Shown piece by piece: positions 2,587 to 5,882 of a DNA stretch of 11,763 nt (position 1 is its first letter; every line of letters starts with the position of its first letter). Under the pieces are notes generated by a model. The model saw only the letters and a list, made by a program, of their open reading frames with translations. It was not told where the DNA came from and did no database searches. Origin of the DNA: Emcibacteraceae bacterium. Its GTDB lineage: Bacteria; Pseudomonadota; Alphaproteobacteria; Sphingomonadales; Emcibacteraceae. Both the position numbers and the translations under genes were made by a program. The stretch spans positions 1 through 11,763 of the forward strand of contig JAESUD010000360.1 of NCBI GenBank assembly GCA_016763335.1, written 5' to 3'.

Positions 2587-2626
2587 ATCTGTCATAACTG
2601 CTTTTTATTATTTAATTTATATTTTT

Positions 2627-2631
2627 TGGAG
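2627..2631 (+). promoter_or_regulatory. Ribosome binding site that fixes the trxB start
   Basis: TGGAG at 2627-2631 lies 9 nt before ATG 2641. A longer reading from TTG 2626 would overlap this site itself and add five residues (MELSL) that family members lack, so ATG 2641 is the better start. Confidence 0.8.
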
Positions 2632-2640
2632 CTTTCATTA

Positions 2641-3588
2641 ATGGCCACCGAGCATCAAACTAAAGTCCTGATCATTGGTTCTGGACCTGCTGGTTATACC
2701 GCTGCAATATATGCGGCGCGGGCAAACCTAAAACCGATTATCGTACAGGGAATGGAACCCGGCGGACAGCTGACGATTACAACAGACGTCGAAAATTATC
2801 CCGGCTTTGCGGAGGCCATTCAAGGCCCGTGGCTTATGGAGCAAATGAAAGCACAGGCTGAAAATGTCGACACGACAATTATTACTGATTTCATAACCGA
2901 TGTTGATTTTACCAAACGTCCTTTTGTCTGCAAAGGCGATAGTGGCGATACCTATATCGGCGAGACAGTAATCATTGCCACGGGTGCACAAGCCATGTGG
3001 CTCGGCCTTCCCTCCGAAGAAAAATTTCAAGGGTCCGGCGTTTCTGCATGTGCTACTTGCGATGGTTTTTTCTACCGTGAAAAAGAAGTGATTGTGGTTG
3101 GCGGCGGTAATACTGCCGTTGAGGAAGCCATTTTCTTAACTAATTTTGCGTCAAAAGTTACACTGGTTCACAGGCGTGATGAACTACGTGCTGAAAAAAT
3201 TCTTCAGGATAGATTATTTGCCAATGAAAAAATTACCTGCGTTTGGGATAGTCAAATTGACGAAATTCTCGGTGATGAACCGCCAATGGGCGGTGTAACA
3301 GCAGCGCGCATTAAAAATGTTAAAACCGGTGAATTTTCAGAAATTCCCGCTCATGGTGTTTTCATTGCCATTGGCCATTCACCGGCAACCTCGCTTTTTA
3401 CCGGAAAAGTTGATATAAATGATCGCGGTTATATTAATACGGCACCCGGTACTTCAGACACAAATATCCCCGGCGTTTATGCCGCAGGTGATGTGACAGA
3501 CGAAAAATACCGTCAGGCCGTAACTGCCGCCGGAATGGGTTGCATGGCCGCGTTAGACGCAGAGCGATTTATTGCCGCAAACGAGTAA
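2641..3588 (+). CDS. trxB: Thioredoxin reductase (NADPH)
   Basis: This cytoplasmic flavoenzyme passes electrons from NADPH through FAD and a redox-active disulfide to thioredoxin. From ATG 2641 it has 315 residues, the normal length for low-Mr bacterial TrxB. The FAD-binding Rossmann motif is GSGPAG at 13-18, with GGQL at 41-44 and the ATG motif at 114-116. The redox pair is CATC at 137-140. The NADPH-binding motif is GGGNTA at 154-159, with the 2'-phosphate-binding HRRDELRA at 177-184. The second FAD motif is AAGDV at 281-285, followed by the RQAVTAAGMG helix. All key residues are present, and I see no feature that sets it apart from a standard TrxB. A LysR gene follows after 19 nt, an order I know from other alphaproteobacteria (trxB-lsrB). 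The upstream AT-rich stretch (2587-2625) must hold its promoter, but I cannot pick clear boxes. Confidence 0.96.
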   Translation: MATEHQTKVLIIGSGPAGYTAAIYAARANLKPIIVQGMEPGGQLTITTDVENYPGFAEAIQGPWLMEQMKAQAENVDTTIITDFITDVDFTKRPFVCKGDSGDTYIGETVIIATGAQAMWLGLPSEEKFQGSGVSACATCDGFFYREKEVIVVGGGNTAVEEAIFLTNFASKVTLVHRRDELRAEKILQDRLFANEKITCVWDSQIDEILGDEPPMGGVTAARIKNVKTGEFSEIPAHGVFIAIGHSPATSLFTGKVDINDRGYINTAPGTSDTNIPGVYAAGDVTDEKYRQAVTAAGMGCMAALDAERFIAANE

Positions 3589-3607: not shown

Positions 3608-4492
3608 ATGGATTGGGATAAACTTCGTATATTTCATACAGTCGCGAGCGCCGGTAGTTTTACTCACGCCGGCGAAACGCTCGGTTTAAGCCAATCCGCT
3701 GTCAGTCGTCAGATCAGAACGCTGGAAGAAAGCCTGCAAACGTCGCTTTTTAATCGCCACGCAAGGGGGCTTATCCTTACCGATGAGGGTGAAACACTTT
3801 TTGAAACGACTAAAGATGTCTATTCAAGAATCCATGTCACCGAACAAAGAATACTCGAAGGCACAGAAACCCCGAGAGGCAATCTAAAAATTACCACGAC
3901 GACCAGCTTTGGGTCCACATGGATGATGCATAATATCAAAAAATTTATTGATCAATATCCGCAAATTCATGTTCAAATGCTTATTGGTGACGAAGATTAT
4001 GATCTGCTTACCAGAAAAGCCGATGTCGCCATTAGGTTTCACCCGACAGAACATCTCGACCTTATTCAAAAGAAAATAGCCACTTTTCATTATCATCTCT
4101 TTGCTTCACCAGATTATTTGAACAAACATGGCAGGCCGAAAACAATCGAAGACCTCGATGACCATAAATTAATCGCTTATGGTGACTTAGCCACCAGTCC
4201 GATTCGCAATATTGACTGGTTATTAGAGGACGGCGCCAAGAAAAAACGAAAACCTTTTCTCGAAATAAACAATATTTATGGTGTTTTACAAGCGGTAAAG
4301 TCCGGTATTGGCATTGGATCATTACCCGATTATCTAGTTCAGGGTTCAACAAACATTACCCGCGTACTTGAAGAGGCAGATGGGCATGAATTTCCCGCAT
4401 ATTTTGTTTATACGCAAGAGCTTAGAAAATCAAAACGCATTGCCGCCTTCCGTGATTTTATCGAAAAGGAATTCAAAAAAACGCGCTTTTAA
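3608..4492 (+). CDS. LysR-family transcriptional regulator, LsrB/VtlR-like
   Basis: This 294-residue protein is a full-length LysR regulator. Residues 1-60 form the winged helix-turn-helix (FTHAGETLGLSQSAVSRQIRTLE within about 18-40, then the wing NRHARGLILTDEG at 49-61). A linker helix follows, and a substrate-binding-like effector domain starts near residue 90. The opening MDWDKLRIFH and the position after trxB match the LsrB (Sinorhizobium, Agrobacterium) and VtlR (Brucella) group, which control envelope, stress and small-RNA genes. The start is supported by AGGA at 3598-3601 and the typical N-terminus. The gene is probably cotranscribed with trxB. One oddity is that the protein contains no cysteine at all, although rhizobial LsrB has been described as sensing oxidants through cysteines. 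A likely target is the sRNA just downstream, whose promoter region carries a T-N11-A palindrome. Confidence 0.92.
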   Translation: MDWDKLRIFHTVASAGSFTHAGETLGLSQSAVSRQIRTLEESLQTSLFNRHARGLILTDEGETLFETTKDVYSRIHVTEQRILEGTETPRGNLKITTTTSFGSTWMMHNIKKFIDQYPQIHVQMLIGDEDYDLLTRKADVAIRFHPTEHLDLIQKKIATFHYHLFASPDYLNKHGRPKTIEDLDDHKLIAYGDLATSPIRNIDWLLEDGAKKKRKPFLEINNIYGVLQAVKSGIGIGSLPDYLVQGSTNITRVLEEADGHEFPAYFVYTQELRKSKRIAAFRDFIEKEFKKTRF

Positions 4493-4529
4493 TCGAGAAT
4501 TTATTTAATATATTTAACATATTTTAGCT

Positions 4530-4544
4530 ATGCGTTTTTTGCAT
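4530..4544. promoter_or_regulatory. Putative LysR-type binding site (T-N11-A palindrome)
   Basis: The 15-bp sequence ATGCGTTTTTTGCAT is an inverted repeat (ATGC-N7-GCAT) that fits the T-N11-A rule for LysR regulators. Its centre (4537) is about 65 bp before the predicted start of the downstream sRNA, the usual place of a LysR recognition site at activated promoters. TGCAT recurs at 4548-4552, 8 bp downstream, and could be part of a second, activation half-site. The regulator gene ends 38 bp upstream. Short palindromes occur by chance in AT-rich DNA, so this rests on position as much as on sequence. Confidence 0.5.
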
Positions 4545-4567
4545 GTCTGCATTGCCATTTACCCCAG

Positions 4568-4596
4568 TACTCATTCTCTGAGCAAACATCTATAAA
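4568..4596 (+). promoter_or_regulatory. Putative activator-dependent promoter of the sRNA
   Basis: TATAAA at 4591-4596 is a good -10 box; 17 bp upstream lies only a poor -35 (TACTCA 4568-4573). A strong -10 with a weak -35 fits a promoter that needs an activator. Transcription would start near 4602-4604. The -10 is flanked by an inverted repeat, AACATCT 4584-4590 and AGATGTT 4603-4609. Confidence 0.45.
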
Positions 4597-4601
4597 CTAC
4601 C

Positions 4602-4766
4602 CAGATGTTGAGAAACATCGCTGAATAGTTCTTTAATTATTTCAGTTTGTGGTGGCACCGCATCCTCCCCCTTTTCGGTCCACCACTCGTTTCATAATCT
4701 CCCCAAGATATGAAACCTCCCTATATTTTGTGAACTTGCCGGGTCTTATGACCCGGCATTTTTTTT
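4602..4766 (+). ncRNA. Probable trans-acting small RNA with anti-Shine-Dalgarno loops (AbcR-like candidate)
   Basis: This stretch has no credible ORF but a clear RNA architecture of about 165 nt. In order it contains: a 6-bp hairpin with a GAGA tetraloop (GATGTT 4604-4609 / AACATC 4614-4619); a weak 5-bp hairpin (CTGAA 4621-4625 / TTCAG 4641-4645); a strong hairpin of 7 plus 4 bp (GTGGTGG 4649-4655 / CCACCAC 4680-4686, then ACCG / CGGT with one bulged C) whose 15-nt loop carries CCTCCCCC; an 8-bp hairpin (GTTTCATA 4689-4696 / TATGAAAC 4709-4716) with CTCCCC in its loop; a free CCTCCC at 4716-4721; and a strong terminator. Exposed CCUCC/CUCCCC segments can pair with ribosome binding sites, as in AbcR (alpha-r15), alpha-r14 and CcsR/cuckoo RNAs of alphaproteobacteria. 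As I recall, the abcR genes of Agrobacterium lie next to the VtlR/LsrB gene, which is the context here. Family membership is inference; the boundaries depend on the predicted start. Confidence 0.7.
4737..4766 (+). terminator. Strong Rho-independent terminator of the sRNA
   Basis: GCCGGGTC (4738-4745) and GACCCGGC (4750-4757) form an 8-bp GC-rich stem with a TTAT loop, extended by a T-A pair (4737, 4758), and followed by eight T residues (4759-4766). It lies 245 nt after the LysR stop, too far to be simply that gene's terminator, which supports a separate short transcript. Confidence 0.92.
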
Positions 4767-4809
4767 ATGTTTAACTCAAACATATAATCCCAGAGAAATA
4801 CTCACCCTA

Positions 4810-4838
4810 TTGACATGTTAGTCTTTTAGAATCATATT
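4810..4838 (+). promoter_or_regulatory. Sigma-70-type promoter for the small ORF and lipoprotein gene
   Basis: A perfect TTGACA (4810-4815) is followed after exactly 17 bp by CATATT (4833-4838). Transcription would start near 4845, 25 nt before the small ORF at 4870. Apart from this promoter I see nothing else in 4767-4869. Confidence 0.65.
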
Positions 4839-4869
4839 TGTTTCTCTTCATATAAATACGGGGAATAAT

Positions 4870-4977
4870 ATGAAATTCACACAGCAAAATAAAAATTATA
4901 ATAAAAGTGAAGAGTTCAAATTTCATCATAGCGACCTCAAAACAGGCGAACATAAAATCATGGATATTGTGAGGTAG
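4870..4977 (+). CDS. Possible small protein of 35 residues (leader ORF)
   Basis: An ATG at 4870 opens a 35-codon frame ending at TAG 4975-4977. GGGGAA (from 4860) precedes it with suitable spacing, and a good promoter lies just upstream. The predicted peptide starts MKFTQQNKNY and is hydrophilic, rich in Lys, Asn, Glu and His, without a membrane segment or signal. It ends 5 nt before the lipoprotein gene, whose ribosome binding site (GAGG 4971-4974) lies inside its last codons, so translation of the two could be coupled. I recognise no family. It may be a real small protein, a leader peptide that tunes expression of the next gene, or a chance frame; at this length composition cannot decide. 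Confidence 0.4.
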   Translation: MKFTQQNKNYNKSEEFKFHHSDLKTGEHKIMDIVR

Positions 4978-4982
4978 TAATA

Positions 4983-5882
4983 ATGAAGATGAGTTATTTT
5001 ATATTATTTATTTTTTCATTAGGTACATTATTTTCCTGCGCACAGGAAGATATAAAAAATGACGATGCTATTCTAGCAGATGTAGTTCTTCCTGATGTTA
5101 TGCCAGAGATCATCAAATTTTTTGACGCAACCATATTTGCAGATAAAAATAATAAGATCGAATATATACCAGAGCCCGATGGTGAGAGGGCGGGAATAAG
5201 CTTCCATCTTATAACTGTGGATCGCTTAGGTTCCTTTGCTCCAAAATTGGTAGGGTATATGGGTTTTGCACAGAGATATTTCTCTTCTGAAATTCTTAAT
5301 AGGATCAGAATTTCTACCGAACCCGGGCAAGTTTCAGATGTACAAATATTTGGAATTAAAGAATTAAACCCAGAAACAATTGAAGAGGCATATTCCAAAT
5401 ATAAGGAATTTGTGCGTACAGAGGTACCAATTGAAAAATCTGAATTTGAAAAGACTGATTTTACCCAATCTTGCTTTATCCAAAGAATAATGACTGCGGG
5501 CAAAAGACGCACCTTTTCTGCCATCCTATACAACGGCGATGATACTGAAAATTACGATATTAAAGAAAGGGTCGTTGATTGTTATTTTAGAACTTTTTTT
5601 GTTCAATTTGGGGTGTGGCCGTTCGAGACAAGCAATAGAAAATTTTTGACGGTTCCTACTGTCGTTTATCCTGGCTTAGAACCCGGAATGGGGTCGAAAA
5701 AAGATATCTTGGAGGTGATGGAAAGGATAAGAAATCAAAAAAATATCCCCATTGATGAAAAGGTGCCAACATTTGCGCTTCGTAGCACGGGGTTTCAAGG
5801 GTTTTTAGTAAATGATGATGTATACGTAGGTATGGGCCGTGATGAGTTTTTTCAAATGATCAAAGATAGATATTCACGTTAA
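4983..5882 (+). CDS. Putative lipoprotein of unknown function
   Basis: I do not recognise the family of this 299-residue protein. The N-terminus is a lipoprotein-type signal: hydrophobic residues about 4-17, then LFSC with the candidate lipidated Cys19. Phe at the -2 position is unusual for a lipobox; Ala at +2 would send a lipoprotein to the outer membrane. The mature part mixes strands and helices and has just two more cysteines, Cys164 (TQSCF) and Cys200 (VDCYF), which could form a disulfide in the periplasm. An FQGFLVNDDVYVGMG segment near the C-terminus (271-285) looks like a beta hairpin. GAGG at 4971-4974, 8 nt before the ATG, supports the start; no closer alternative fits better. It stands between the sRNA and a convergent operon with no functional link visible, and may be lineage-specific. 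A 179-codon frame on the opposite strand is a shadow without a start signal. Confidence 0.75.
   Translation: MKMSYFILFIFSLGTLFSCAQEDIKNDDAILADVVLPDVMPEIIKFFDATIFADKNNKIEYIPEPDGERAGISFHLITVDRLGSFAPKLVGYMGFAQRYFSSEILNRIRISTEPGQVSDVQIFGIKELNPETIEEAYSKYKEFVRTEVPIEKSEFEKTDFTQSCFIQRIMTAGKRRTFSAILYNGDDTENYDIKERVVDCYFRTFFVQFGVWPFETSNRKFLTVPTVVYPGLEPGMGSKKDILEVMERIRNQKNIPIDEKVPTFALRSTGFQGFLVNDDVYVGMGRDEFFQMIKDRYSR

Follow-up and report, generated by a model that had tools for sequence, protein, structure and literature searches.

What does the blank gap behind a LysR-type regulator gene in an Emcibacteraceae bacterium hold, and what are its relatives? The window, by which we mean the whole stretch of 11,763 nucleotides that was analysed, leaves 490 bases between the stop of the LysR gene at 4492 and the next listed open reading frame at 4983. 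An original prediction, made from the letters, placed in this gap an uncatalogued small RNA (sRNA) with hairpins, a CCTCCC stretch and a terminator with eight T residues, and all of these named parts are present. Judged from the sequence, a small RNA with three CU-rich stretches able to cover ribosome-binding sites is probably transcribed behind the LysR-type gene of this alphaproteobacterium. We further consider it likely that this RNA acts in trans as a multi-contact anti-Shine-Dalgarno sRNA, expressed from its own promoter under the control of the upstream regulator, which is of the LsrB/VtlR type. The features of the locus are as follows.

2626-3588, + strand: trxB, thioredoxin reductase gene (Pfam Pyr_redox_2, 190.7 bits; named through relatives and the literature locus)
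3608-4492, + strand: LsrB/VtlR-type LysR gene (Pfam HTH_1 and LysR_substrate)
4530-4544, + strand: inverted repeat ATGC-N7-GCAT, overlapping the operator and conserved in the genus alignment
4541-4553, + strand: LsrB/VtlR box GCAT-N3-TG-N3-T, from -61 to -49 relative to the predicted start 4602
4590-4595, + strand: predicted -10 element CTATAA, from the letters
4602-4766, + strand: sRNA gene with predicted start (fold z-score, conservation, covariation, match of model R1 over 4682-4765)
4604-4619, + strand: hairpin 1 (GATGTT/AACATC), from the fold; five of six pairs invariant among 13 genus copies
4620-4646, + strand: hairpin 2, from the fold; without CTCCC in the window's genus
4649-4686, + strand: hairpin 3, from the fold; loop with CCTCCCCC, stem strongly covarying
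4689-4716, + strand: hairpin 4, from the fold; holds CTCCCC (4699-4704)
4716-4721, + strand: linear CCTCCC seed, unpaired in the fold except for its first C
4737-4758 (stem) and 4759-4766 (eight T), + strand: intrinsic terminator, from terminator scan and letters
4983-5882, + strand: next gene, an open reading frame for a 299-aa protein that matches no family in Pfam or NCBIfam and, by eye, starts like a lipoprotein

Structure and conservation of the sRNA

The sRNA starts 109 bases 3' of the lysR stop on the same strand, and its fold reaches -56.4 kcal/mol, compared with -29.2 (sd 3.5) in shuffles (z -7.82; none of 200 shuffles equal). Three segments had been described as exposed. Two are largely so, since CCTCCCCC (4664-4671) falls entirely within the 15-nt loop of hairpin 3 and the linear CCTCCC is almost wholly unpaired, but the CTCCCC of hairpin 4 is only partly exposed, its CT closing the loop. 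Directly 3' of the linear CCTCCC comes TATATTTTG, an A/U-rich stretch that may serve as an Hfq site. The window as a whole is not rich in CTCCC (8 occurrences on both strands against 11.6 expected), with 3 of the 8 lying inside the sRNA, and three CTCCC are reached by 24 of 20,000 letter shuffles of the sRNA. A short open reading frame at the sRNA 5' end was dropped as a candidate, being not kept in all relatives (by eye, in the genus alignment).

A DNA search of 60 genomes, including the window's own, yielded some match at E<=1 in 43, many of the weak rows being chance. Among same-genus relatives, 11 of 12 match nearly the full-length sRNA at E<=2.2e-47, the twelfth (G011) being an assembly that is 53% complete. 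Covariation was assessed in a genus set of 13 copies from 12 loci, one of which holds a tandem pair, and in a family set of 35, which adds 22 copies collected by a regular expression blind to copies with other terminators. Alignment A4 comprises 30 of these 35, omitting the near-duplicates L024, L236 and L239 together with two divergent copies (L262 and the second copy in L027). The alignments are without hand curation, and many of the genomes are fragmented assemblies.

In the genus set, both-sided changes were found in 11 pairs, amounting to 23 cells versus 7.5 in shuffles, while the pair-type count alone does not exceed shuffles (116 of 500 reach the same). In A4, where hairpins 1 and 2 were excluded from the count because MAFFT misaligned them, the other three helices display both-sided changes in 98 cells, against 33.7 when shuffled and at most 24 when slid, and 94.6% of their cells pair, against at most 44.8% in the slid control, a control that favours structure because the fold was derived from one of the aligned sequences. 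Compensatory changes, the absence of which had been set as refuting the prediction, are present in 9 of 11 pairs of hairpin 3 across the 30 sequences, in 1 of 11 pairs of hairpin 4 and in 3 of 9 of the terminator; the latter two elements are conserved mainly as sequence. The reality of the sRNA is settled by its conservation in the genus and by this covariation, not by the terminator scan, which in the window is at background (1 found versus 0.8 expected). The predicted uncatalogued sRNA with anti-Shine-Dalgarno segments is supported by both, and by homologous RNAs that occupy the equivalent position elsewhere. Many copies from sister genera also carry CTCCC in hairpin 2, giving four segments, and tandem sRNA pairs occur in genomes G012, G013 and G016.

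Regulator, operator and promoter

Neither the type of the regulator nor its box had figured in the original prediction; both emerged in the follow-up. Among solved structures, the LysR protein matches 9hh1 best (277 bits; the next scores 109); this is LsrB, alias VtlR, of Agrobacterium tumefaciens (PMC11975290). A search of the window's own genome with A. tumefaciens LsrB at E<=1e-50 returned the window LysR as the sole match. The gene order trxB-lysR-sRNA of the window parallels trxB-vtlR-abcR1-abcR2 in A. tumefaciens (PMC7486931). The lysR gene lies directly 5' of the sRNA in all 12 same-genus loci (the window included), in both loci from the order's other families and in 11 of the 16 further family loci, the five exceptions being L015, L016, L017, L025 and L026. 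Cysteines C144 and C273 of LsrB are conserved among the rhizobial LsrBs compared (PMC11975290); the window protein has Val at both positions, and of 110 class orthologs no more than 8 have Cys at the first and 1 at the second, so that redox sensing via those residues cannot be general. By its homology and residues, the window regulator is LsrB-like and not a redox LsrB.

Upstream of the sRNA, the box sits exactly where it does in S. meliloti PabcR1, at -61 to -49 (PMC8844928; box also PMC7486931). It is the only match in the window, where 2.6 are expected by shuffling; the LsrB box is not rare by itself, and only its place is telling. That place is kept across the family set, in which the full 13-base box occurs in 22 of 35 copies and GCAT-N3-TG in 27 of 35 (L024 with two N), starting at -60 to -62. 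The window's own genus is weaker, with the full box in 2 of 13 copies and GCAT-N3-TG in 7 of 13. Of the 35 family copies, 33 have TATAW within -14 to -6; the second L027 copy is the one among the 35 that lacks both this element and the box. A promoter scan upstream of the sRNA listed no sigma-70 promoter and recognised no -35 element.

Relation to a class-wide group and to named families

A sample of 289 alphaproteobacterial genomes contained LsrB-like genes in 183, and we examined 110 such loci (30 from search output and 80 hand-picked, none of the window's order), 92 of which have trxB directly upstream. Behind the LsrB-like stop, these loci have CTCCC 150 times versus GGGAG 6 times between +150 and +299, and 64 forward versus 3 reverse terminators between +200 and +349. 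CTCCC precedes a terminator by 8-60 bases in 64 of the 108 loci with enough sequence. A 29-base core, ACGTCTCCCAGACGTGAAGCCTCCCTGTT, recurs exactly in 31 of the 110 loci and its central 23 bases in 42 (50-500 bases behind lysR); RCCTCCCT is present at that distance in 73 and missing in 37.

From LsrB-like loci of other orders, the window's order being excluded, 64 cores were taken by a second criterion, of which 62 were aligned (A1; near-duplicates L164 and L180 dropped) to build model R1. Since the terminators were misaligned by MAFFT, it contains only 5 base pairs and so works essentially on sequence. R1 matches the window at 4682-4765 with 46.9 bits and an E-value of 7.4e-13 in 131 kb, its only match there, E-values being rough owing to a short calibration. 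This match is the actual test, from which it follows that the window RNA belongs to the LsrB-linked group; the 29 relatives' loci given to R1, all of which match at 30-61 bits, are no independent sample, having been found by DNA similarity. R1 matches occur in 41 of the 60 genomes, and matching family genomes carry one to three at full length. A named set of 78 loci was retrieved through trxB, and a lysR relative is present in 56 of them. Here R1 yielded 16 full-length matches of at least 24 bits, each just 3' of lysR, in records that include Kiloniellales, Rhodospirillaceae and Magnetovibrio; no such match came from the remaining 40 of the 56, which include Devosia and Bosea. On the evidence of R1, the window RNA is a member of a broad, non-universal group of LsrB-linked anti-Shine-Dalgarno sRNAs.

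Other contents of the slot were also observed. Along 1 kb of sequence behind lysR, two Devosia loci (L079 and L084) display three and four LsrB boxes, respectively, in alternation with runs of CTCCC and with terminators, a pattern that suggests tandem sRNAs and has no match to R1 (E<=0.01) or to Rfam at gathering. In alphaproteobacterial locus L125, three tandem SorX/suhB-like copies (2591-3196) follow the LsrB-like gene. The slot of L105, L109, L049 and L062 holds other CTCCC stretches and hairpin-like repeats by eye without an R1 match, with a terminator called in L049 and seen by eye in L062. No lysR relative lies within the trxB locus of L074, L080, L085, L092, L103, L104, L107 and L108; the lysR-less trxB records comprise Celeribacter, Shimia, Thalassovita, Tropicibacter, Albibacillus, Ruegeria and Phaeobacter. 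SorX stems from the order of such Celeribacter- and Ruegeria-type records.

Rfam at gathering gave no match in the window and none in 35 lysR-bearing loci given (17 named trxB and 18 class loci). The covariance search that had been proposed with the alpha-r families in mind did not return ar15; within 4480-4990 at E<=10 its best matches, all sub-gathering, were SorX (RF02784; 27.3 bits, E 1.5e-4; gathering 46.6) and SorY (RF02651; 24.2 bits; gathering 111), both over the 3' half of the sRNA, and suhB/alphaR8 (RF00519; 22.2 bits; gathering 41). SorX also matches 13 of the 18 class loci given at E<=1, with up to 43.8 bits and none at gathering, and ar15 is absent from all 39 Rfam rows for these 18. 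By these scores, the 3' core of the group resembles SorX, SorY and alphaR8. Membership of the window RNA in SorX or alphaR8 was rejected, as it scores below gathering for both.

Much as in alphaR8 (suhB/MmgR/SisA-D), the window RNA has a weak hairpin, what may be a comparable single-stranded CCUCCCU stretch, and a terminator, the single strand ahead of the terminator being UUUCCUCCCU in alphaR8 and AAACCUCCCU here; its hairpin 4 aligns with the ACGTCTCCCAGACGT hairpin of sRNAs from other orders. A single-copy alphaR8 is usually found beside an FGase gene (PMC12559287), whereas the window RNA is flanked by LysR and a protein that matches no family. The genome's own suhB match over the cut-off (G000:C138, 50.8 bits) does lie beside FGase (PF05013, 183 bits), and alphaR8 proper was therefore rejected for the window RNA, the FGase-linked copy sitting elsewhere in the genome. 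A second suhB-like RNA in this genome, at G000:C55, is below the cut-off and carries TTTCCTCCCCC (L331 and L332 denote G000:C138 and G000:C55).

The alternative that survives best is that the window RNA is AbcR (ar15) proper, descended together with Rhizobiales abcR1 and diverged in sequence beyond recognition. Both RNAs lie behind trxB-vtlR/lsrB with the same box spacing (for the window relative to the predicted start) and occur as tandem copies in some genomes, both have CCTCCC in a hairpin loop, a C-rich seed in linear sequence and ACTT ahead of the terminator, and an LsrB-like gene is upstream in 9 of 12 fetched ar15 loci. In the order to which genome G294 belongs, 19 of 149 genomes gave an ar15 match, 5 of them above cut-off. 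However, neither 4480-4990 at E<=10 nor the own genome gave a match to ar15 (RF02345, gathering 40); a search of the 289 class genomes also found none, but there no positive control matched either. Given 10 ar15 loci (L227 and L230 not among them), R1 scores 13-19 bits in nine and misses L221, and 7 of the nine matches begin at R1 position 47 or later, in the terminator. The AbcR motifs M1 CUCCCA and M2 GUUCCC (PMC5461406) are both absent from the window sRNA, and TGTTCCCCTCTGG occurs in 0 of 110 class loci. Unlike AbcR1 and AbcR2, moreover, the window RNA is about 165 nt long with four hairpins plus a terminator. AbcR proper was rejected on these grounds, and descent from abcR1 seems unlikely to us: AbcR and the LsrB-linked group, as far as their sequences can be compared, have a common place and regulator and no detectable common core.

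The likeness to AbcR and alpha-r14 that had been proposed is thus one of kind, not of membership. Nearest in logic is NfeR1 (alpha-r14) of S. meliloti, which is LsrB-activated, has three anti-Shine-Dalgarno motifs in unpaired hairpin parts with variable stems, and is reported to be Hfq-independent (PMC10746234, PMC8844928). In NfeR1/cuckoo RNA, CCUCCUCCC is identical in three hairpins, whereas the window segments differ from one another (CCUCCCCC, CUCCCC and CCUCCC), and alpha-r14 is not among the Rfam matches to 4480-4990 at E<=10 (if Rfam holds that family). Open-licence main texts, in the portions drawn on here, describe no such sRNA behind LsrB-like genes outside Rhizobiales.

SorX is processed from an mRNA 3' end. 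With SorX as the best Rfam match and the window RNA on the lysR strand shortly past its stop, cleavage of the sRNA from the 3' end of lysR mRNA has to be considered, yet the conserved operator and TATAW precede the RNA start, and five copies without a lysR relative in their 3-kb locus (L015, L016, L017, L025 and L026) keep the full box and TATAW. We regard such processing as improbable, and an sRNA with its own promoter remains the preferred reading.

Proposed action and meaning

Under the preferred reading, the LysR protein would bind 4541-4553 and activate transcription of the sRNA, and Hfq, the gene for which is present in the own genome (109 bits), would bind the U-tail and the A/U-rich stretch. 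By base-pairing to G-rich ribosome-binding sites, the linear CCUCCC and the loops with CCUCCCCC and CUCCCC could then keep several mRNAs from being translated, with each hairpin potentially offering an alternative contact. A precedent is SisA of Caulobacter, which has the same CCUCCCU seed and base-pairs 5' of a start codon (PMC12559287).

The CU-rich loops might instead mainly bind other G-rich sRNAs, making the RNA a sponge. The CCUCCCU seed of the Caulobacter RNAs SisA-D is a binding site for CrfA (PMC12559287), and no long exact complement was found here: the exact 12-base complement of the hairpin-3 loop occurs only in the sRNA itself in nine same-genus genomes and nowhere in four others. 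In Caulobacter, however, it is the CCUCCC RNA that regulates mRNAs and the G-rich RNA that is the sponge, and we rate titration slightly below processing. Least of all do we credit a mere terminator with chance pyrimidine runs, which would suit the simplicity of C-rich runs and the background-level terminator scan but is very hard to square with the fold z-score, the compensatory changes in hairpin 3 and the match of a model from other orders.

AbcR represses mRNAs of ABC transporters; for the multi-target repression of transporter mRNAs that had been proposed for the window RNA, the leads are weak. The own genome holds 10 sites of the form GGGGAGG-N2-8-ATG versus 5 for the reversed pattern. 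True starts among the 10, by eye, belong to TRAP DctM, TonB-receptor, rplE and repeat-like protein genes. With rplE among them, a target cannot be inferred from the strength of a ribosome site, and we claim none. In several genus genomes, GGGGAGG-NN-[AG]TCTAATG is kept at dctM-like starts (L303, L307, L308 and L312), and the same pattern at rplE-like starts (L304, L305, L306, L309 and L311) suggests ordinary strong initiation, one identity of each kind having been checked in Pfam.

More tentatively, the place behind trxB-lsrB may be an ancient alphaproteobacterial sRNA slot. An anti-Shine-Dalgarno sRNA driven by an LsrB-like protein would then predate the split of the orders, with AbcR, SorX/alphaR8-like and multi-hairpin forms as its diverged or replaced occupants, and the ancestral input would not have been thiol oxidation, because on this reading the redox cysteines are a rhizobial addition. 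We hold this as a possibility, with the odds somewhat against it.

The trxB-vtlR order or the AbcR region has already been called widely conserved in the class (PMC7486931, PMC8844928, PMC5461406), and ar15 has been placed in most Rhizobiaceae and Brucellaceae (PMC8844928). LsrB itself has been called 'unique to Rhizobiales' (PMC11975290), a statement based on few species, which the presence of LsrB-like genes in 183 of the 289 genomes limits. A blank gap becomes one case of a regulator-sRNA module spanning alphaproteobacterial orders. The module bears on why one RNA carries several anti-Shine-Dalgarno hairpins, and it offers a direct test of which signal is read by LsrB-type regulators without redox cysteines.
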